DNA from: Methanobacteriota archaeon
Lineage (GTDB): Archaea; Halobacteriota; Methanosarcinia; Methanosarcinales; Methanosarcinaceae
Length of the DNA: 40,412 bases
Direction of reading: 5' to 3'
NCBI GenBank assembly: GCA_016841625.1
Contig: JAENYU010000021.1
Span: 18,110 to 58,521, forward strand
Shown: positions 5,393-16,065 of the stretch, one piece after another
How positions within the stretch are numbered: position 1 is the first letter of the stretch
Layout of the letters: the number at the start of each line of letters is the position of its first letter
Position numbers and translations under genes: made by a program
The notes under the pieces: model-generated
Databases searched by the model: none
What the model was told of the DNA's origin: nothing
What the model saw: only the letters and a program-made list of their open reading frames with translations

Positions 5393-6091
5393 TCAGTAGA
5401 AGGGGACGGTAAATGAAGGGAACCAGAAATGAGCTACCAGTAAGATGAATAAGCTGACTGTCGGAACAGTGAGATTATCATCAACATTCTCTATTCGCTC
5501 AACGAATGAGCATACTATTCCTGCAAGAATTCCGGCAGGACCCAGTTTGGCGCCGATGATTATGCACAGGACCAGCATACCTACAGTGCCTTCCCAGGCT
5601 TTCGTCCGTCTGTTGTACTTTAGGTTCCTTATTATTCCGGTTATCCCATCCCCGTATGCCATGAAAAGCACGGGGATAACCCCGATCCAGAATGTTTTGT
5701 CGATGTACCAGGTAAAAAGCACTATTATTCCCCAGATGAGTGTGAAATCGACATCGTAGAGATTGTCCGGGTCCTGGAACCAGTACATCAGCCTGCCGGT
5801 CTTGTGTGGAATGTATGTCGCAAAAGCAAGTCCGATTGCAAAGACTGCCGGCACGACAGGTTCCCTGGCAAAAAAGGGCAGCAACGTTGCGGTTAGTCCT
5901 CCCGCTAAAAAATGGATTACTTTTCTTGCAAAGTATATTGACGAATTGTGCGATCTTCCCTTCTCCAGAGCAAATTCATAAGTCTTTTTTGCCAGAACAA
6001 GGATTACAAATAAATTCCAGACCCCAAGGACTGCAAATAAGGGCAGGTCCGCGATTATGGATTCCAGTGGGATTTGAAGGAAGGCTTCCAT
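5393..6091 (-). CDS. Dolichol/phytol kinase-like polytopic membrane protein
   Basis: A 232-residue integral membrane protein with about seven hydrophobic segments. It carries the hallmarks of the SEC59/DGK1/VTE5 CTP-dependent lipid kinase family: ARKVIHFLAGG near residues 54-64 and YGDGITGIIRN...KAWEGTVGM near residues 146-172, where the Asp-Gly and Lys-x-x-Glu-Gly-Thr motifs form the nucleotide site. The likely role is phosphorylation of a polyprenol or dolichol at the cytoplasmic membrane, feeding glycosylation or lipid synthesis. The exact lipid substrate cannot be read from the sequence. It starts at ATG 6091 with no clear ribosome-binding site and is monocistronic. Confidence 0.82.
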   Translation of the reverse strand: MEAFLQIPLESIIADLPLFAVLGVWNLFVILVLAKKTYEFALEKGRSHNSSIYFARKVIHFLAGGLTATLLPFFAREPVVPAVFAIGLAFATYIPHKTGRLMYWFQDPDNLYDVDFTLIWGIIVLFTWYIDKTFWIGVIPVLFMAYGDGITGIIRNLKYNRRTKAWEGTVGMLVLCIIIGAKLGPAGILAGIVCSFVERIENVDDNLTVPTVSLFILLVAHFWFPSFTVPFY

Positions 6092-6143
6092 GACACTCTG
6101 TATATCTTTAGGGTATAAGGTTTTTTGGATTTGTTATCTCTCA

Positions 6144-6388
6144 GGCGGCAGATTTGTATTCGATTGGTATTATATAAGAGTAGTAATATATACATATTCT
6201 ATGGGAAAACGAGGGCCAAAGCCTAAGTTTACTGATGTTGCCTGCCCAAATGAAGAGTGTAAAGATCACGGTGTCACTGGAAACGGAAACGTAACCGGTA
6301 ACGGTACATACCAATCAAGAAGCAAAACTGTTAGAAGATACCGCTGCCATAGCTGCGGAGAAGCGTTTTGTGATAGTACAAATACTTT
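6144..6388 (+). mobile_element. Truncated 5' part of an IS1-family element
   Basis: This stretch aligns, in the opposite orientation, with the outer 245 bp of the complete element at 6389-7553: the terminal repeat, the AT-rich leader and the first part of the transposase gene. It then stops abruptly at the edge of the complete element. The two copies are clearly diverged, so this is an older or different subtype. The pair forms an inverted repeat around the transposase gene. Confidence 0.85.
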
Positions 6389-6391
6389 GAT
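6201..6391 (+). pseudogene. IS1-type transposase, N-terminal remnant
   Basis: The remnant begins MGKRGPKPKFTDVACP and keeps the Cys4 zinc finger (CPNEEC...RCHSCGEAFC) before the homology ends after about 63 codons at the junction with the neighbouring element. The frame runs on into unrelated sequence, so no catalytic domain is encoded. Confidence 0.85.
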
Positions 6392-6400
6392 GGTCCATCT

Positions 6401-7066
6401 TTATACGATTGATGTTTTGAAACACCTAAATGTCAGCAATTGTTTTAAAGTCCACTTTGACTCAGTAATCCCTGCTTCTCTTACAGGTGTATTTTTGCAC
6501 ATAACTCCTCTTTCATCTTTGTACTTTAATCCACCATGCCCTCTACAGAAGTTAAAATGCGTGCAATAGAGCCTCATTTGACGTACTAGCCATTCTTTTA
6601 CTTTTGAAAAACCTATCGTTTTCCTTGAAACACGGTTGTTATCCTGTCTAAAAGTCAGGTTTTGTCTTTCAAGTAAAGTAGTTGAGATTTCGCTTTGTTC
6701 AATATCTTCTCCAAAGATAACCTTCTTCTCTACTTTTTCAATTATCCCGCCTTTTCTTGTTTTGATTACCTGTGCATATATCAAATCATTGGAAGGAACA
6801 AGTTTTGGTTTCTTTGGTCTTCCCCTTTTTCCTGTTCTTGGGAACTCTTCAACTACTCCATATACATTCAAAAGAGCTCCTTTATAAAATGCCAATCCAT
6901 CTGTGATAAATACAGGGATTTTTTCAGAAAGACACTTATTAACTAACTCAACCAACTTGTCTGCTACATACTGTTTTCTTGGACCTATAACAAAATCAAT
7001 TATTAGCCTACAACTTGGTACAAAAGCTACCCACATCCACATCCCATCATCTTCATAATCCTTCAT
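6401..7066 (-). CDS. IS1-type transposase, downstream frame (catalytic core)
   Basis: This frame carries the rest of the DDE domain: the second Asp in FITDGLAFYKGAL and the Glu in LLERQNLTFRQDNNR, with the following Arg-rich IS1 signature. It continues open upstream of its first ATG to the A8 run at 7078-7085, which shows it is normally translated as a fusion with the upstream frame. The fused product would be about 360 residues, the size of the single-frame archaeal IS1 subgroup. Whether the element is active depends on how the frame break is resolved. Confidence 0.85.
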   Translation of the reverse strand: MKDYEDDGMWMWVAFVPSCRLIIDFVIGPRKQYVADKLVELVNKCLSEKIPVFITDGLAFYKGALLNVYGVVEEFPRTGKRGRPKKPKLVPSNDLIYAQVIKTRKGGIIEKVEKKVIFGEDIEQSEISTTLLERQNLTFRQDNNRVSRKTIGFSKVKEWLVRQMRLYCTHFNFCRGHGGLKYKDERGVMCKNTPVREAGITESKWTLKQLLTFRCFKTSIV

Positions 7067-7496
7067 TCGTGGAACTATTTTTTTTGACTATCACCCATAG
7101 TTCATCCATTTCAACCTTCGGTACATCGAGGTTCGTCATCAAATTGTCATTTACTTTCTCACACTGCTCAGCTGCACGGGCTAACCATCGTTTCACACTG
7201 GCTGCTTCTACCTCTAAAACCTCTGCAATGGCTTCAATACTCATCCCTTTCATGGACATTTTAAGAGCTAAATCGATGATTTTCTCATCTTTGCGAAGAT
7301 CATGATAAAAAGTGCCTGTATGGTCACAAAATGCTTTGCCGCAGTGACGGCAAATGTATCTTCTTGTTTTTTCTCCACGGCTTATGTAAGTCCCATTTCC
7401 AACAACGTTCTCCTGACCAGTTTGACCATAGAGATCACAGTCTTCATTCGGACAGGCAACGTCAGTAAACTGTGGCTTTGGACCTCGTTTTCCCAT
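7053..7496 (-). CDS. IS1-type transposase, upstream frame (zinc finger, HTH, first catalytic Asp)
   Basis: A 147-residue frame that begins MGKRGPKPQFTDVACP and contains a Cys4 zinc finger (CPNEDC...CRHCGKAFC), a helix-turn-helix (MSIEAIAEVLEVEAASVKRW) and the first DDE aspartate in VEMDELW. It runs out of phase with the catalytic frame at an A8 run (T8 at 7078-7085 on the plus strand). Moving from this frame to the next requires a +1 (or -2) shift at that run, or one base fewer in the run. So either recoding or a single-base insertion separates the two halves. The ATG lies in the AT-rich leader close to the element end. Confidence 0.85.
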   Translation of the reverse strand: MGKRGPKPQFTDVACPNEDCDLYGQTGQENVVGNGTYISRGEKTRRYICRHCGKAFCDHTGTFYHDLRKDEKIIDLALKMSMKGMSIEAIAEVLEVEAASVKRWLARAAEQCEKVNDNLMTNLDVPKVEMDELWVIVKKNSSTNEGL

Positions 7497-8759: not shown

Positions 8760-9164
8760 TTACCTAATTTTCCCGGCTTCGAGTTCCCTTTCCAGGTCCG
8801 TGATATCAAACCAGACCCGCACAGGTGCATCTTTTCCTGAATCGTTGAGATCAATTTCTATGGGCTGGATTAAGTAATCCTTGATGGTTTCCCATTCCCC
8901 TTTTCGGATATCGGTGATTTCCCAGGGGCCGGATTTAGGGTCTTTCTTTCTGTCCCGGCTAAGCTGGGCAAGCAAATGCTTTTTTTCCATGTAAGATAGG
9001 GCTTCAATCCCTTTGATCTCGGACCCCCCCACTTCAGGCTTATCTATTTCAGGCAGGTTTAATCTGTGCTGGTTCACCTTATGTTGAGTTGCATCTGGCT
9101 GGTTTACTTTATGTTGGTTCACTTTATGCTGCTTCACATCGGTTTGATTCGCTTTGGATTCCAT
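8760..9164 (-). CDS. Hypothetical protein with Gln/His/Asn repeat N-terminus
   Basis: A 134-residue protein I do not recognise. The first 45 residues are low-complexity repeats of QHKVNQ produced by a short tandem DNA repeat. The rest (GGSEIKGIEALSYMEKK and a conserved-looking PWEITDIRKGEWETIKDY...RVWFDITDLERELEAG) resembles a small folded domain with alternating beta and helix. AAAGGGGGTAAAGAG precedes the ATG, a strong ribosome-binding site, so it is probably expressed. It lies 118 bp downstream of the TIR gene on the same strand and could be in the same transcript. Confidence 0.65.
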   Translation of the reverse strand: MESKANQTDVKQHKVNQHKVNQPDATQHKVNQHRLNLPEIDKPEVGGSEIKGIEALSYMEKKHLLAQLSRDRKKDPKSGPWEITDIRKGEWETIKDYLIQPIEIDLNDSGKDAPVRVWFDITDLERELEAGKIR

Positions 9165-9199: not shown

Positions 9200-9292
9200 G
9201 GTTCTGATCAACTTCAAAGCAAGTTTCAGATCAACTTCAAAGCAAGTTTCAATTCAAGCTTCAGATCAACTTCAAATGAAGTTCAGAGTAAG
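9200..9292. repeat. Degenerate tandem repeat, about 23-bp unit
   Basis: GATCAACTTCAAAGCAAGTTTCA is repeated about three times, with a partial diverged copy containing AATTCAAGCTTCA. It fills the space between the TIR gene stop and the ribosome-binding site of the next gene. It is non-coding in the direction of these genes. Confidence 0.85.
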
Positions 9293-9843
9293 GGCATGAA
9301 GGTTCTTGGGTCCAGGGAGAGAGCCCTCTGGCAGTAGCTGCACAGGGTTTCCAGGTTAGTCCCCCTGAGTAGGGCCCTGTCCACCTCTTCCTGGGGTGAG
9401 ATGTACTGGGTCATTTCCTCCCCACAGTAAGGGCATTTTATCTTCAGCCAGTCCAGCCTGGTGAGCTGCCTTATATTCTGTATCAGCATACCCATGGCAT
9501 CTTCAAAGGCATCCGCGGAAAATCTGATGGGATTCAGGTGACGGATCAGGACGGGCAGTTCCACCCCGGCCTCTGCCAGTGGAATTATTAGCTGGTCGGT
9601 TCCCACGGCCAGGCCGATTTCCTGGTTTACTTCCGTAGCTGCTGCCCCTTCTCGGGTCAGGATTGTGATTACGCAGTCGGACTGCCGGATCCCGAAGCGT
9701 ATCCGTTCCGCCCGGGAGAGGGACTGGGCTTTCCTGTACAGGGAAGAAAAGCTCTCCAGTTCCACGGCCCAGAGAGCCCGGGCCAGTTCCTGGGCAAGGG
9801 GCTCGTCCTGCTCACAGTGGGATATGTAGACTCTGGTGATCAT
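9283..9843 (-). CDS. TIR-domain protein with C-terminal zinc ribbon
   Basis: A 186-residue cytoplasmic protein. Residues 1-125 read as a TIR domain: VYISHCEQDEPLAQELARAL is strand A and helix A, DCVITILTREG the central strand, and EVNQEIGLAVGTDQLIIPL carries the Glu (E75) that lines up with the catalytic NADase Glu of SARM1-type TIRs (HKEIVTAL). Residues 137-171 hold a CPYC...CSYC zinc ribbon. Prokaryotic TIRs often cleave NAD+ in defence or make signalling nucleotides; the zinc ribbon could bind nucleic acid or a partner. No Thoeris- or CBASS-type partner gene is recognised nearby. Its neighbours are a small Pro/Glu-rich ORF and an ATP-grasp gene upstream on the same strand. No clear ribosome-binding site. 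TIR identity is likely; catalytic activity is inferred. Confidence 0.8.
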   Translation of the reverse strand: MITRVYISHCEQDEPLAQELARALWAVELESFSSLYRKAQSLSRAERIRFGIRQSDCVITILTREGAAATEVNQEIGLAVGTDQLIIPLAEAGVELPVLIRHLNPIRFSADAFEDAMGMLIQNIRQLTRLDWLKIKCPYCGEEMTQYISPQEEVDRALLRGTNLETLCSYCQRALSLDPRTFMPLL

Positions 9844-9902
9844 GGTTCAGTCGTGTCAGGGTTGCTTTGCTTTTTATCCTTTAAGCCGCATTCAACATGC
9901 AG

Positions 9903-10034
9903 TTAACTTTTTTTGTCCTCATGTTTTCTGGTCGGCTCCGGGCTGGGCAGATTTTCGGGTGAAGGAGCAGGTTCCGGTTCCGGACAGGGTATTGTTTCCG
10001 GCTGAATAGATAATTCCCTCTCGTCTTTTTGCAA
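9903..10034 (-). CDS. Small Pro/Glu-rich ORF (43 residues), TTG start
   Basis: This frame opens at TTG 10034, eight bases after an AGGGGGG ribosome-binding site, and ends at TAA 9903. The product is hydrophilic, with a PCPEPEPAPSPENLPSPEP core and a basic/acidic tail ending KHEDKKS. It lies 59 bp upstream of the TIR gene and about 116 bp downstream of the ATP-grasp gene, all on the minus strand. The strong Shine-Dalgarno site is the main reason to call it; composition suggests an unstructured peptide. It could be a short regulator, a linker-like protein or a spurious frame. Confidence 0.45.
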   Translation of the reverse strand: MQKDERELSIQPETIPCPEPEPAPSPENLPSPEPTRKHEDKKS

Positions 10035-10150
10035 AATAATTTCCCCCCTTAATTACCCATTTTTAATATCTAAATTATAATTCCACCCTATAAAATCTCT
10101 CTGCTACAGACTATATTGCAATATTTCAGTATTCCAAAATTCCACATTTT

Positions 10151-11431
10151 TCAGATTTCTCTCTCGATGGAAAAGGAAATTTTGCTGAGGATACGGTTGT
10201 ATTTATCTACCAGGCCCTGGCGGTCGTCTGCGCCGATGTAGATGTCTGCAAGTTCGTAGCTGTAGCTGTCCCGGATCTGGAACTCGGAGAGTTGCTGCCC
10301 TTCTCTGACAAGGAGCCTGATGATGGTGTCCGGGATTTCCCGTTTGACTGCGGCGATTTCTTCTCTGCTGGGGACTTTTACCACTTTTCCGGGTTCAAAG
10401 GTCCTGAGCATGAATTTTGCGGCGTAATTGTATTTTCCCTGCCATTCAAAGGGGACCGGTTTCCTGCCAAGGGCTATTTGCAGCATGACCCTGTGGTGGG
10501 AGACCCCATGCACTTTTTCAAAAAGGTCTGCGTGGGATTGGGACATTCTCGGGTTGATTTCAAGCAGGTAGATTTCGTCGCTGTCGGGGTCATAGAAAAA
10601 TTCCACGTTGAAGGCAGAATTGTCCAGCCCTATGTGTTTGATGATCTTCCTGCAGACCCCTGCCATATGGTCTTTTACCCGGTCAGGAAGGGATGAGGGG
10701 TATTCGTAGCTTAAGACGGAGGAGAAGTGCCCATCAAGGACCCAGTCGACAACCCCGTATATTGCCACTTCCCCGTCCAGAACGTAGCCTTCAACGGTGC
10801 ACTGCCTGCCTGAGAGGGGGCTTTCGGCAAGGCAGCTCTCTTTCATGTCTGCAAACTCGGACGGTATGGTGTAGTTTTTCAGCAGGTAACGGAATGGCTC
10901 ATGGAGGAAGCCGATCTTTTCGCGAATTTCGTGGACGTGTTCACTGAACTCCTCTTCACTATCCACCCTGAACGCTAGAAATGCCCTGAAAGACCTGACC
11001 GGCTTGATCCAGAACGGGGTTTTAATATCGATTCGGGCGCAGGATTCCTCATCAAAAGGATCGAAAGCGCAGAACTTCGGAATATTATGAGGGATAATCT
11101 TCTGCTGTTCAAACCGGCTCCAGTATTTGTGCTGGCATTTGCAGACGCTCTCCATACTTGGCCCCGGCACTCCGTAGGTTTCGACAAGGATCGGGACAAG
11201 GTCAGTTGCCGGAAAATCAAAGTAGGTGACAATGGCATGGGTCTTCCCGGGAGTTGTTTCAATCCGCTGCCTGGCCCTGACAATCAGCTCCCCCATGTCA
11301 TAGTCCGGAACGTCCAGGATTTCGCTTGCATCGAGCGCGGAATAAAAGTTACACTCGGCGGCTTCCGGAAGCCTCTGAAGTTTCTTGAGATTGAATGAAT
11401 CCATACCGACGATAAAAACGTTCTTTTTCAT
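10151..11431 (-). CDS. ATP-grasp domain ligase of unknown substrate
   Basis: A 426-residue cytoplasmic ATP-grasp enzyme. The N-terminal pre-grasp domain starts MKKNVFIVGMDSFNLKKL; then come KYWSRFEQQKIIP, the ATP-lid lysine region (FWIKPVRSF), TVEGYVLDGEVAIYGVVD, and the metal-binding Glu/Asn motif VEFFYDPDSDEIYLLEINPRMSQSHA. Such enzymes join a carboxylate to an amine or thiol through an acyl-phosphate. The overall layout resembles carbamoyl-phosphate synthetase/biotin carboxylase-like and peptide-ligase members, but I cannot name the substrate. I chose ATG 11431 because GAGGGGG precedes it at correct spacing; the frame extends 11 codons further to 11464 without one. It may be co-transcribed with the small ORF and TIR gene downstream. 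Confidence 0.85.
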   Translation of the reverse strand: MKKNVFIVGMDSFNLKKLQRLPEAAECNFYSALDASEILDVPDYDMGELIVRARQRIETTPGKTHAIVTYFDFPATDLVPILVETYGVPGPSMESVCKCQHKYWSRFEQQKIIPHNIPKFCAFDPFDEESCARIDIKTPFWIKPVRSFRAFLAFRVDSEEEFSEHVHEIREKIGFLHEPFRYLLKNYTIPSEFADMKESCLAESPLSGRQCTVEGYVLDGEVAIYGVVDWVLDGHFSSVLSYEYPSSLPDRVKDHMAGVCRKIIKHIGLDNSAFNVEFFYDPDSDEIYLLEINPRMSQSHADLFEKVHGVSHHRVMLQIALGRKPVPFEWQGKYNYAAKFMLRTFEPGKVVKVPSREEIAAVKREIPDTIIRLLVREGQQLSEFQIRDSYSYELADIYIGADDRQGLVDKYNRILSKISFSIEREI

Positions 11432-11874
11432 ACATGCCCCCTCAATCATGTCCTTTTCCCTCATTTTCCAGGACCGTGTCCTGTCACTTCAGGTTTTATC
11501 AGATATGATCAGATCAATTACGGGGGAATTATTTGCCACCAGCTCTTACGAATCTTTCATACTCCCCCATTTTATACTATTTATTTACGAGGACATATAA
11601 TTATCTTATTTTATTTTTCTACTATGAGTTCAAAGCTTCTTTTTTTGTTGTACGATCCCACCTGTCAAATCAACCTTTTTTGAAAAATGAAAAATGAAAA
11701 ATGAATAATTAAAATGAGTTATTAATAAAAATAAAAAAAATGAAAAATAAATTATTACCGGAAGGACGGAATTGATACTTCAAATCCAATCTCTCCGGCT
11801 TTCGGAGATTTTTCCAGAGCTTTGTTTATCTTGAGCCTGTTTTATCTTCCGTATCATGCATTTTCAGAGCCAGG
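11432..11874. other. Gene-free spacer with AT-rich simple repeats
   Basis: The half next to the ATP-grasp gene (to about 11600) should hold its promoter. The part around 11683-11755 is made of irregular repeats of GAAAAATGAAAAAT type. A short inverted pair, CCGGAAGGAC and CTCTCCGGC, lies near 11757-11790. I see no coding potential with a ribosome-binding site. Confidence 0.5.
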
Positions 11875-13944
11875 TTAATCTTCCGGATCATATATGTTTA
11901 TGAACATTTCTTTTGAGGCTGAAAGCAATGTTTCGCGATCAGTTAGGACCAATCCGACAGGGGTATGTTCCGGGACAAGGGCTTTGAACGTAAATTCCAG
12001 GTCAGATTCTTCTTCCAGTGATACGTTTTTGTTTGAGATGAAAAACTCTAAAAACGTACTTTTGTTTTCATTGATTTCAGGGTCTGCCCTGCAGGTAAAA
12101 GTTTCTCCCAGAGCTACATTTACCGGAAATGCCGGTTCGATTAATTTTAATTCCGGGAACTTATTTTGGTCTGCTGTAACTCCGTTAAGGGCCAGGTTTT
12201 CCAGCCAGTCGAGTAAGTTCTGGGTTATGTCGGTTTCAAGGTTGAACCCTTCTACATTAAATGCCACATTGTATATCGCACTAAGCTGCTGGGAGTAATT
12301 TTCAGTTGAAGCCGTAAGTGTGATATGTCTTTTATTTTCCGGATTAAGGCCCTGTACGCGGGAAATGTGCCTTTCACTTTCCGGATTGGGGCGGTGTACG
12401 CATTCGTTTAGCGCCGTTGATGCAAGGGTTTTGAAAATTCTCTCGTGCACCGGGGCCGGACCACTGTTTGACACGTAGATTTCGAGATTTATTTTTTCTT
12501 CACCTTCGTGCATGCACCACTGCTTCAATACCCCATTCCACCCGACTCTGACCTGCTCGAGGTCCAGGGTCCAGCCTGATAATAGTGGATTTGCCAGGGG
12601 GTCTGGCCAGTTGCAGCATACGAAGGTATTGGGGTCTATGCTTTCGTGTCTTGCAGGGTAGTCCAGCAGTTCCTTAATTTTGTTTAACTTTTCTGCTTTT
12701 TTGTCATTCCTATTTTCGTCCTTTTTCTCATCCATTTTCTCGTCTTTTGCACTTTCAGGTGGCACAGGCAGCGGATTTGCATCTTCGATCCTATCTACAT
12801 CGACCACCCCGTACCCTATAACGATATCCTCCTTTTTCCCGGGCCTGTCAAACCTTTCTGCCGGGTAAAGTTCGGGTTTTGAATCAACGGCCTGGTCGAC
12901 ATATTCTTCTGCCGTATCGTTTCCGGGGTGAGGTCCTGCACAGGCGTCCAGTATATTGTCCTTATTTAACAGGCCGCAAAAAGCGTGGTTGGCAAATCCG
13001 GTCCGGAGCTCCGAGGCTTCATCAACGACTTCAGGGTCGTGCCGGCCGTGTTTTAAGAAGAAGGGATTGTTGCACTCTCCCCTGCCCAGCAGGTCGGTTT
13101 TGTCGAGGTAGCCGAAAGGCTCCAAAAATAGCCATTCAATGTCGTTAATCCCTATCCCGCCGAGTATTGCCTGTAAAGCTGCTGCCTGGTCGTAACAGTT
13201 AGCAATCGGGATTGAGCCGGTCAAATAGGCTTTTAGGTTGAAAAAGCCGCCGTGTTCAAAAACCCCGTAATGGCTTGCTCCGCAAAAACTGTCGTATTTC
13301 AGTTCATGTTTGAAGTGGCAATAATCCACAATTCCTGAGATGCATTCCTCCTTTGACGCAGGGGTGCTAATGACCTTCCCCGAGAGGAATTCCAGTAACT
13401 CAGCCCATGCTCCTCTCTTGAACATCGTGCCGGGCTGGTCAAATATCCAGTATATCTCTACTGGAATAGTTTCAACTGTTTCGACGATTTCTTCTGCTAT
13501 TTCTTGAGGATCTCCGGGATCTTCCTGAGCCTTTTCAGAATTACCTTTTTCTTCCGTATTCTCTTCGGAGTCTCCTGTTTCTTCCGAATAATGGATTTTC
13601 CAGACCATATCTCCCTTTTTGCAGCAAAATTTGTCAATTGCTTTTTCAGGCCTTGTGGAAACCGTCTGTTCTTTTATGCCTCCCTCAATCTCGCCTGAAA
13701 ATTCCAGATCATCTATTATTCCCGTTATTTTGAGGGTTTTTCCGTTTTCCAGACCTTCCTGTTCGATTTCAAGAGAGATACTATTGTCAAATTCATTGCC
13801 GATTACAAATACACCGGGTTTGTGAGTTTCCCTGCTGCTGGCGTCCCAGTTGGGTTCTGGGAGGACTTTGCCATTAAAGCAGGTTTTTACGCCCCCTTTG
13901 ACATTGAGGGCTTTTATTTTGACATCTATTTTCGGGGTTACCAT
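11875..13944 (-). CDS. Large transglutaminase-like (papain-fold) protein
   Basis: A 689-residue soluble protein without signal peptide or membrane segment. The middle resembles a transglutaminase-like cysteine hydrolase: candidate catalytic Cys250 in IANCYDQAAALQAIL, His320 in FANHAFCG, and Asp333 in NILDACAGP, in the family order C-H-D. The N-terminal 110 residues look like a beta-rich domain with a CC pair, followed by an acidic, Glu-rich linker (about 120-160). A second charged linker (about 405-430) leads to a C-terminal beta-rich region that may be Ig-like. The role is unknown; transglutaminase-like proteins of archaea are mostly proteases or amidases. ATG 13944 is chosen because GGA lies six bases upstream; a GTG five codons earlier is possible. 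Confidence 0.7.
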   Translation of the reverse strand: MVTPKIDVKIKALNVKGGVKTCFNGKVLPEPNWDASSRETHKPGVFVIGNEFDNSISLEIEQEGLENGKTLKITGIIDDLEFSGEIEGGIKEQTVSTRPEKAIDKFCCKKGDMVWKIHYSEETGDSEENTEEKGNSEKAQEDPGDPQEIAEEIVETVETIPVEIYWIFDQPGTMFKRGAWAELLEFLSGKVISTPASKEECISGIVDYCHFKHELKYDSFCGASHYGVFEHGGFFNLKAYLTGSIPIANCYDQAAALQAILGGIGINDIEWLFLEPFGYLDKTDLLGRGECNNPFFLKHGRHDPEVVDEASELRTGFANHAFCGLLNKDNILDACAGPHPGNDTAEEYVDQAVDSKPELYPAERFDRPGKKEDIVIGYGVVDVDRIEDANPLPVPPESAKDEKMDEKKDENRNDKKAEKLNKIKELLDYPARHESIDPNTFVCCNWPDPLANPLLSGWTLDLEQVRVGWNGVLKQWCMHEGEEKINLEIYVSNSGPAPVHERIFKTLASTALNECVHRPNPESERHISRVQGLNPENKRHITLTASTENYSQQLSAIYNVAFNVEGFNLETDITQNLLDWLENLALNGVTADQNKFPELKLIEPAFPVNVALGETFTCRADPEINENKSTFLEFFISNKNVSLEEESDLEFTFKALVPEHTPVGLVLTDRETLLSASKEMFINIYDPED

Positions 13945-14697
13945 GTTGATTCCACGCACTATTGGAAATTTATTAGAACTTTATTATCTAATCAGAATAA
14001 ATTTTTTTGTAAATTTAATCCTTTCTATTTTAACCGGCTCCACTTCAAAACCCGGGGGTGTGATGTAGATGAAAAATAAATGGATTTTGAAACCGGTTGA
14101 TTGAAGCACAAATTCTTCCTGCAAATTAAGAGCTTCGCTAAAGGAATGCAAATATCAATGGATTTTGGAACAGAGTCCCTTTTGGGCGCTTGCGTGAACT
14201 TGATTGAAGCAACTTCAATTTTTCCTCTGAAAATAGAATCCAACCCTTTTCTCCCTTTGATTGAAAATCGCCCTGACCCTTCCCCCCCCTGCCCGAATTT
14301 AATCGGTTTGTTTTGTTTCCGGGGGAGGCTGGAAGTGAAAGGATTTTGAATATTCCGGTGGCATTTTCTGTAATTATTTGGTTGAGGTTCTCCGAAGTAA
14401 CCGGAATGGTGTCTCCCGTCGTTCTTGTCCCGAACGTAGTGAGGCTAGCCCGCTTTGCAAAACAGAAATAAAAAGCTGCATGAAAAGAATAAAATCCGTC
14501 CAGTGGTTCTGACCTAAATTAAGCGATAGCCAATGAATTCTAAATCTTCTCTTTTATTTTTTGCCGGTTTTGGGGCTCTTCGAGAACTTAAGCGGATTTC
14601 CGGCAGGATATTTAAGGTATCCTTTACTATCAGAGATAATCAATTCAAGTTTAAGTGTAATGATCTGTGTACAATTTAACAAGAAGGCGGGAAATAG
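13945..14697. other. Long spacer with decayed copies of the composite repeat
   Basis: Divergent promoters should lie here, for the minus-strand gene ending the left side and the plus-strand gene at 14698. The stretch 14386-14600 matches the composite non-coding repeat seen at 18.6-20.5 kb (CTCCGAAGTAACCGGAATGG, GTCTCCCGT...CCCGAACG, and the GCCGGTTTTGGGGC motif). Around 14188 a degraded GCTTGCGTGAAC...GAAGCAAC segment is also present. Open frames here lack ribosome-binding sites. Confidence 0.6.
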
Positions 14698-16065
14698 ATG
14701 GCGGAAGACAACAATACACAACCTGAAACGTTTTCATTACATGAACGTTTACGCTCTCTTGACGCTACGGATTTTTACGATCTGGTAAGCAAGCTGCTGG
14801 TTAAAAAACCTGAATTATACCAGCTGATTCTTGAGTGGTTCAAGGAAAAACAGGCATCTATGCCGGAAACCATAACAGATGACGATGTTATCTCCATAAA
14901 TGATGACCTGCTGTTTGAATATTGGGAAGATGCCAGAAGTATAATCTCGGAGTTCAATGAGCTTGGTGGTGGGCCTGAAGAAGATGAAGATGAAGCATAC
15001 GAGTACCTTGACCAGATTTTAAAACTCATTAAAGAAGGAGAGCTGTCAACTTCCGCAAAGCTTGATTTTTTGGACGAGGCTTTTGAGGAATATAACGCCG
15101 AAAATTCCGGTTTTGAAGATGGTCTGATGGATATTTTTTTTGAGATCTGCCAGACAAAAGAAGAATGGGAGTATCTGGTGAAAAAGCTTGATGAACATCC
15201 TTCGGATTGGAGAAAAAAACTGATAATGGATATTCAAAGGGAACATCTTCAGGACGACGAAGCTTACCTGCAGGAGCGCATGCAAATCCTCAGTTATGGG
15301 ATGGATTACTGGGACCTGGTTAAATATTATCTTGAGAAGGGTGATCAGGAAAAAGCCCTGGAAACAGCAGAAGAAGGGATCTTAGAGGGGAAAGGCAGGC
15401 TTACTGAGTTGTTTGAATTTCTCTCGGATCATTTTTCGAAGAAAGGAGATGCTGCCAGTCTTGAAAGGATTGTACAGACGGCATTATCTCGCAATACCGA
15501 AAAGAAAGAGATGCTGGACAGGTTATTTGAATATTACAGGTCAAAAGGAGACTACGAGCGTGCAAAAAATGCTCTGTTAAAGTCATTTGAGTTTGCCAGC
15601 CGGAAATATTATGAAGAGTACAAAAGGCTGAAAGGATTCATGAAAGAGCCTGATTGGAAATCCGTTGAGCCTGAAATCTTCGATAAGATCAAAGAAGAAG
15701 ACTTTCACGATTATCTGCGGATATGTCTGGATAAAGGTATGAAAGATACAGTCCTCAAATCAATTCAAAAGCCTCCCAAAAGCAGGTTCGGTTATTCAAT
15801 AGAAGAGAATTTCGATAAGTTTGCAGATGAACTGGCAAATGATTTTCCGGAAAAAATCATCGAATATTACTGGCAAAGATCTCTCAATAAGATTCCTCTC
15901 GGTGGCAGGGGAACATACAGTGTTGTGGCCGGATATCTGGAAAAGGTTAAAAGCATATATATAGACATCCTGAATGATGAACAGAGGTGGATAAAACGTT
16001 TTACCGCTCTGAAAACCGAATTTAAGAAACGTCCCGCTTTCCTTGATGAGGTGAAACACCTGTAA
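14698..16065 (+). CDS. Alpha-helical repeat protein (TPR/SWIM-protein C-terminal-like)
   Basis: A 455-residue, acidic, almost wholly helical cytoplasmic protein. Helix pairs with TPR-like spacing are visible (YYLEKGDQEKALETAEEGI, YYRSKGDYERAKNALLKSF). The C-terminal stretch, YSVVAGYLEKVKSIYIDI followed by RWIKRFTALKTEF and RPAFLDEVKHL, resembles the C-terminal region of SWIM zinc-finger proteins, but no SWIM CxC...CxH motif is present. It probably acts as a scaffold or binding protein. The start ATG is preceded by GGCGGGAAATAG. It has no obvious operon partner and is flanked by repeat-rich spacers. Confidence 0.7.
   Translation: MAEDNNTQPETFSLHERLRSLDATDFYDLVSKLLVKKPELYQLILEWFKEKQASMPETITDDDVISINDDLLFEYWEDARSIISEFNELGGGPEEDEDEAYEYLDQILKLIKEGELSTSAKLDFLDEAFEEYNAENSGFEDGLMDIFFEICQTKEEWEYLVKKLDEHPSDWRKKLIMDIQREHLQDDEAYLQERMQILSYGMDYWDLVKYYLEKGDQEKALETAEEGILEGKGRLTELFEFLSDHFSKKGDAASLERIVQTALSRNTEKKEMLDRLFEYYRSKGDYERAKNALLKSFEFASRKYYEEYKRLKGFMKEPDWKSVEPEIFDKIKEEDFHDYLRICLDKGMKDTVLKSIQKPPKSRFGYSIEENFDKFADELANDFPEKIIEYYWQRSLNKIPLGGRGTYSVVAGYLEKVKSIYIDILNDEQRWIKRFTALKTEFKKRPAFLDEVKHL

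Follow-up and report, generated by a model that had tools for sequence, protein, structure and literature searches.

The window analyzed here, a 40,412-nt stretch of DNA from a Methanobacteriota archaeon, carries on its minus strand a conserved unit in which a Pro/Glu-repeat (PEP) microprotein is followed by a TIR-zinc protein and a further conserved gene. The TIR-zinc gene resides on the chromosome and has been inherited mainly by vertical descent; it is not a mobile defense cassette. The best overall explanation, to which a probability of ~0.4 is assigned, is that its product would be a resident NAD-type hydrolase gated by its zinc module, with small lineage-specific partners in the microprotein and the product of the gene downstream. 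The data establish the anatomy of the unit, its conservation, co-inheritance and synteny, and the lack of a link to an adjacent ATP-grasp ligase gene. The features of the locus are as follows.

9283..9843, minus strand: TIR-zinc protein, 186 aa, single copy (Pfam TIR_2, AlphaFold (AF2), Foldseek, orthologs)
9469..9843, minus strand: TIR domain, residues 1-125 (Pfam, AF2, Foldseek)
9619..9621, minus strand: codon of E75, the predicted catalytic Glu (invariant in 54/54 orthologs)
9286..9468, minus strand: zinc module, residues 126-186, C-X2-C-X27-C-X2-C (all four Cys invariant)
9903..10034, minus strand: PEP microprotein, 43 aa, TTG start
10043..10049, minus strand: Shine-Dalgarno site AGGGGGG of the microprotein
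8760..9164, minus strand: conserved downstream gene, 134 aa; unit member in the window's genus, g2 and Methanosarcina
10151..11431, minus strand: ATP-grasp ligase; genus-specific neighbor, outside the unit

The initial annotation had grouped three minus-strand ORFs, those of the small protein, the TIR-zinc protein and the ligase, and all three were present where it placed them. The association of the small ORF with the TIR gene was borne out, but the inclusion of the ligase was not. An Rfam scan revealed no RNA element in the unit; the sole matches were two tRNAs elsewhere. The window also includes an IS1-like element on the minus strand at 6401-7496, split into two ORFs (DDE_Tnp_IS1, 2.7e-7). 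A plus-strand ORF at 6090-6569 adjoins it and contains a segment that closely resembles the beginning of the IS protein (MGKRGPKPKFTDVACPNEEC), an arrangement which suggests that one IS element inserted near or into another.

The TIR domain and its predicted active site

The 186-aa ORF matched Pfam TIR_2 at 1.9e-11, and an AF2 model of the TIR-zinc protein (pLDDT 90, pTM 0.85) retrieved SPARTA TIR-APAZ, the SARM1 TIR, MilB and nucleoside deoxyribosyltransferases in Foldseek searches. The TIR fold, for which a profile search had been named initially as the check, is thereby confirmed. In an alignment of 54 orthologs from three lineages, which extended down to about 25% identity, just 16 positions were conserved at a level of at least 95%, including E75, G77, R125, W132 and four Cys residues. 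The earlier assignment of E75 as the residue aligned with the catalytic Glu of NADases was upheld: it is situated within VNQEIGLA, the catalytic-Glu motif of TIR domains, and, when the profile included haloarchaeal orthologs, it aligned to the motif Glu of AbTIR, an NAD+ hydrolase. This profile matched AbTIR at 8e-7 and 1.5e-6, with other bacterial TIRs also near. Position 71, which corresponds to the Trp of WxxxE, is Trp in 13/13 haloarchaeal orthologs and in none of the 41 methanogen orthologs, and the classical motif appears to be confined to the haloarchaeal members of the alignment. As this Trp is missing, the methanogen proteins may act on another substrate or possess weak activity. Overall the TIR-zinc protein is predicted from its sequence to be enzymatically active, which is considered somewhat probable.

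No PADLOC model matched the TIR ORF below 0.03, the best being ThsB at 0.031, and a haloarchaeal ortholog matched Pfam ThsB_TIR at 1e-5. A PADLOC scan of the neighboring ORFs agreed with the initial annotation in finding no known TIR-system partner.

The Cys4 zinc module

The zinc ribbon that had been recognized as fused to the TIR domain comprises C137, C140, C168 and C171, each of which is invariant in the 54 orthologs. In a sequence search of the PDB the best match to the module was the redox-switch domain of Hsp33 (1xjh, 9.8e-5), which was colinear over the domain; a further value of 0.0024 was obtained for Hsp33. Hsp33 itself was not found in the window's genome. When the AF2 model of the isolated module was submitted to Foldseek nothing significant was returned; the top non-significant matches were archaeal eS27 ribbons (E 0.17), and eS27 also was matched by sequence at 0.003-0.015. 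Identification of the module as eS27 was rejected since these matches were weak only, and matches to TPR and cytochrome b562 proteins were discarded as spurious because they involved only repeats or one helix. The joint invariance of E75 and the four Cys residues implies that selection acts jointly on the catalytic site and the zinc module, which argues for a putative enzyme with a required zinc module.

Distribution and synteny of the TIR-zinc gene

Full-length orthologs were detected in about 50 of the 112 genomes of the window's family. A profile built from the TIR proteins of the window's family identified orthologs in 47/50 genomes, including all 33 of high quality, of another family of the class, a Methanothrix-like one which we take to be the Methanotrichaceae. 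Full-length relatives that are 22-25% identical occurred in 105/125 genomes (97/111 high-quality) of a further family, whose haloarchaeal identity was inferred from genes such as an HVO_2718-like MBF1. In 13 of 19 Methanothrix-like loci the TIR gene is upstream of, and on the same strand as, a block of genes for a PF02598 RNA methyltransferase and L3-L4-L23-L2, at distances of 92-395 nt in 12 loci and 3.3 kb in one. In all 13 haloarchaeal loci that were read, the TIR gene follows AK6, MBF1 and TpiA and shares their strand. In the tree, the haloarchaeal and Methanosarcinaceae members each formed one group, and the Methanothrix-like proteins were paraphyletic to those of Methanosarcinaceae; an old transfer of the gene is possible on this topology. 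Loss of the gene appears to be frequent within some Methanosarcinaceae genera, the only part of the range in which its occurrence is patchy. A mobile defense gene would not be expected to show this distribution. As the TIR-zinc gene is near-universal in two families, single copy and syntenic, with a coherent tree, it is regarded as resident.

In several Methanosarcina (loci L089, L091-L094 and L106), a gene for a Thi4-like thiazole synthase (260 aa, assigned by eye) is located a few genes upstream of the TIR gene on the opposite strand. Archaeal Thi4 uses NAD, and this connection may be a coincidence.

The PEP microprotein and the downstream gene

The small ORF had been noted for its strong ribosome binding site (RBS); the site was confirmed, and the ORF is a real gene. 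The other frames gave pN/pS values of 1.09 and 2.0, and the coding frame 0.35. Nearly every copy starts with TTG, preceded by a GGGGG or GGAGG site; the RBS in the window is stronger than the 5th percentile of the background. The core of the microprotein, QPEPIPxPEPxPxPSPEPIPxPEP, is flanked by charged ends. A chance reading frame is ruled out by the pN/pS values, the conserved start and Shine-Dalgarno site, and the recurrence of the ORF upstream of the TIR gene. In a Ribo-seq survey of small ORFs in M. mazei, TTG starts account for about 20% of new ORFs (PMC11456600), and the microprotein may be among those catalogued there without a function. Text searches of the literature retrieved no description of this TIR-zinc family or of the microprotein.

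A profile search that covered 112 genomes of the family and 238 of the class recovered 39 copies of the microprotein gene, one per genome and within 39/238 of the class genomes, and each copy was directly upstream of a TIR gene on the same strand. Thus, the pairing noted in the window is kept in other genomes, and the PEP microprotein is a clear example of a small gene tied to a single partner: no Pro/Glu ORF was found away from a TIR gene in the 238 class genomes. The 39 genomes belong to the window's genus, g2, g3 and Methanosarcina, together with one g9 genome. In the patchy genera g3 and g9, eight genomes had both genes, ten had neither, and only G063 had the TIR gene alone; the p-values for this pattern take no account of relatedness among the genomes. 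The TIR gene was present without the microprotein in twelve family genomes, namely nine of g5, G009, G063 in which the TIR gene is broken, and G122 where the contig ends. The microprotein was not found in Methanothrix-like genomes, in the class neighbors of the haloarchaea, or in g5 and g7. Because it is missing there, it cannot be required for the basic TIR function.

Individual loci deviated from the common pattern. In G001 (L088; G001:C9:8809-8934), a TAA codon comes straight after the TTG start of the microprotein and the remaining frame is conserved. In three single genomes (G105:C2:3177716-3178265, G128:C63:1849-2407 and G063:C1:497665-498127) a frame change or stop apparently disrupts the TIR gene; in G105 and G128 the microprotein and the downstream gene persist beside it. 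In g5 loci L102, L103 and L105, which have no microprotein, the TIR gene is followed instead by one for a small regulator of 86-94 aa, judged by eye to be winged-helix-like.

The gene at 8760-9164 was absent from the initial grouping. Its relatives, found in 32 genomes (the window's genus, g2 and 27 Methanosarcina), were directly downstream of the TIR gene on the same strand in 32/32 cases, with gaps of 40-287 nt between matched segments. No Pfam family was found for it. The median RBS strength was -9.2 kcal/mol for the microprotein, -10.0 kcal/mol for the downstream gene when the best among its possible ATG starts was taken, and -3.5 kcal/mol for the TIR gene against a background of -3.0 kcal/mol. 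This contrast between a strong site on the small ORF and none on the TIR gene, along with the usual gap of about 21 nt between the two in Methanosarcina, would suit a leader (uORF) that controls TIR synthesis by being translated and does not yield a functional peptide. Such a role concerns the microprotein alone and is compatible with any reading of the TIR protein, but it is judged unlikely: the gap ranges from 12 to 290 nt, the TIR gene lacks an RBS in genomes without the microprotein also, and the pN/pS value reflects conservation of Glu as well as Pro positions and of the charged ends. The lack of a TIR RBS in the absence of the microprotein similarly makes translational coupling unspecific as the sole explanation for the missing site.

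The ATP-grasp ligase

The ligase ORF spans 10151-11464 and its relatives begin at an inner ATG at 11431. Matches to Pfam ATP-grasp_4 (1.2e-10) and CPSase_L_D2 (7e-11) indicate that the product is a diverged ATP-grasp protein. The initial annotation had proposed that this enzyme modifies the small peptide or a metabolite linked to the TIR protein, for which the adjacent position on the same strand in four genomes, all of the window's genus, is the evidence. In other genera the ligase ortholog is missing or away from the TIR gene. The microprotein and TIR genes occur together in 35 further genomes in which no ligase is beside them, and Methanosarcina with both genes have no close ligase relative. 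Furthermore, in 11 loci the ligase gene directly follows that of a Peptidase_S15-type (CocE/X-Pro type) hydrolase of ~670 aa, apart from the TIR gene. The ligase was rejected as a partner of the TIR unit because adjacency is limited to one genus and the gene is paired elsewhere with the S15-type hydrolase; modification of the peptide does not stand as a general mechanism, and the proposal is considered very improbable. The ligase-hydrolase pair is conserved in other Methanosarcinaceae (L107-L116 and L119), with a 694-aa protein of no Pfam family (11875-13959) standing in for the hydrolase in the window's genus. In loci L106 and L089 of Methanosarcina, a genus assignment made from shared contigs, the counterpart of the gene at 14698-16065, which lies beyond the ligase in the window, is directly beside the TIR unit. 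The arrangement is what would be expected if the ligase pair had entered the window's genus by insertion or had been lost elsewhere.

Proposed function of the TIR-zinc protein

In the proposed mechanism, the TIR-zinc protein would be an NAD+-type glycohydrolase that acts through E75 and is held inactive by the folded Cys4 module. Oxidation of the Cys residues or loss of zinc would release the enzyme, which under stress might then consume NAD or generate an NAD-derived product. Gating of this type is advanced tentatively from the sequence relationships of the module, and is itself rather doubtful. In Methanosarcina and its close relatives, the microprotein and the downstream gene would be dedicated cis-encoded partners or regulators specific to one branch, as the core function is found in lineages that lack them; regulation of the TIR protein by the microprotein is a reasonable possibility that falls short of being probable. 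A broader proposal, in which a housekeeping, non-immune archaeal TIR uses its zinc redox switch to tie NAD level or RNA and translation to stress, with the Methanosarcina microprotein as regulator, is somewhat unlikely.

The zinc/redox-gated NAD-type hydrolase is rated highest, followed by an enzyme linked to RNA or the ribosome and by an immune TIR that has become fixed. In the RNA-linked alternative, the zinc module would bind RNA or the ribosome, where the TIR domain would act, for example by converting NAD-capped RNA to ADP-ribose-RNA or by sensing stalled ribosomes. The ribosomal-operon synteny of Methanothrix-like loci and the AK6-MBF1-TpiA context of haloarchaeal loci are in keeping with this role, as are the eS27 ribbons among the nearest matches to the module. 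Both NAD-RNA and ADPR-RNA exist in archaea (PMC10663502). However, synteny within a family can arise by vertical inheritance alone, the 100-1400 nt that separate the gene from TpiA do not demonstrate an operon, and Methanosarcinaceae have no such synteny, so that a link to RNA or the ribosome is viewed as unlikely. The immune alternative, an abortive-infection NADase that became a fixed core gene and has its trigger or brake in the microprotein and the downstream gene, draws on the closest folds being those of defense TIRs (SPARTA and Cat1) and on the dedicated small neighbors, which suit a toxin-brake arrangement. The single-copy, near-universal and syntenic occurrence of the TIR-zinc gene in two families and its coherent tree are unlike the behavior of patchy defense genes, and PADLOC yielded only the marginal ThsB match with no partner nearby; this alternative also is rather improbable.

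Prokaryotic TIR proteins are studied as components of antiviral systems that are gained and lost between strains. A TIR that is fixed, single-copy and syntenic throughout whole archaeal families and has an invariant catalytic Glu and zinc site suggests cellular TIR chemistry outside immunity, a role that can be tested in genetically tractable Methanosarcina.

Comparison with known systems

The zinc module resembles the Hsp33 redox-switch domain in being a colinear Cys4 unit, but the similarity is weak with one Cys offset by a residue, the first Cys pair is CXXC here and CXC in Hsp33, and the chaperone domain of Hsp33 is absent. SPARTA TIR-APAZ was the top Foldseek match to the TIR fold, whereas the TIR-zinc protein has no APAZ region and its unit includes no Argonaute partner. 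Thoeris ThsB likewise is a TIR protein of single-domain size with a weak profile match; here, no ThsA (SIR2-SLOG) gene is adjacent, a zinc domain is present, and the distribution is housekeeping-like. The best sequence matches among solved structures were AbTIR-type NAD+ hydrolases (PDB 7uwg and 8g83), TIR proteins that possess the motif Glu. The likeness is limited to the TIR part and leaves the zinc module unmatched, the methanogen members differ further in the WxxxE Trp, and the gene described here is core and syntenic.
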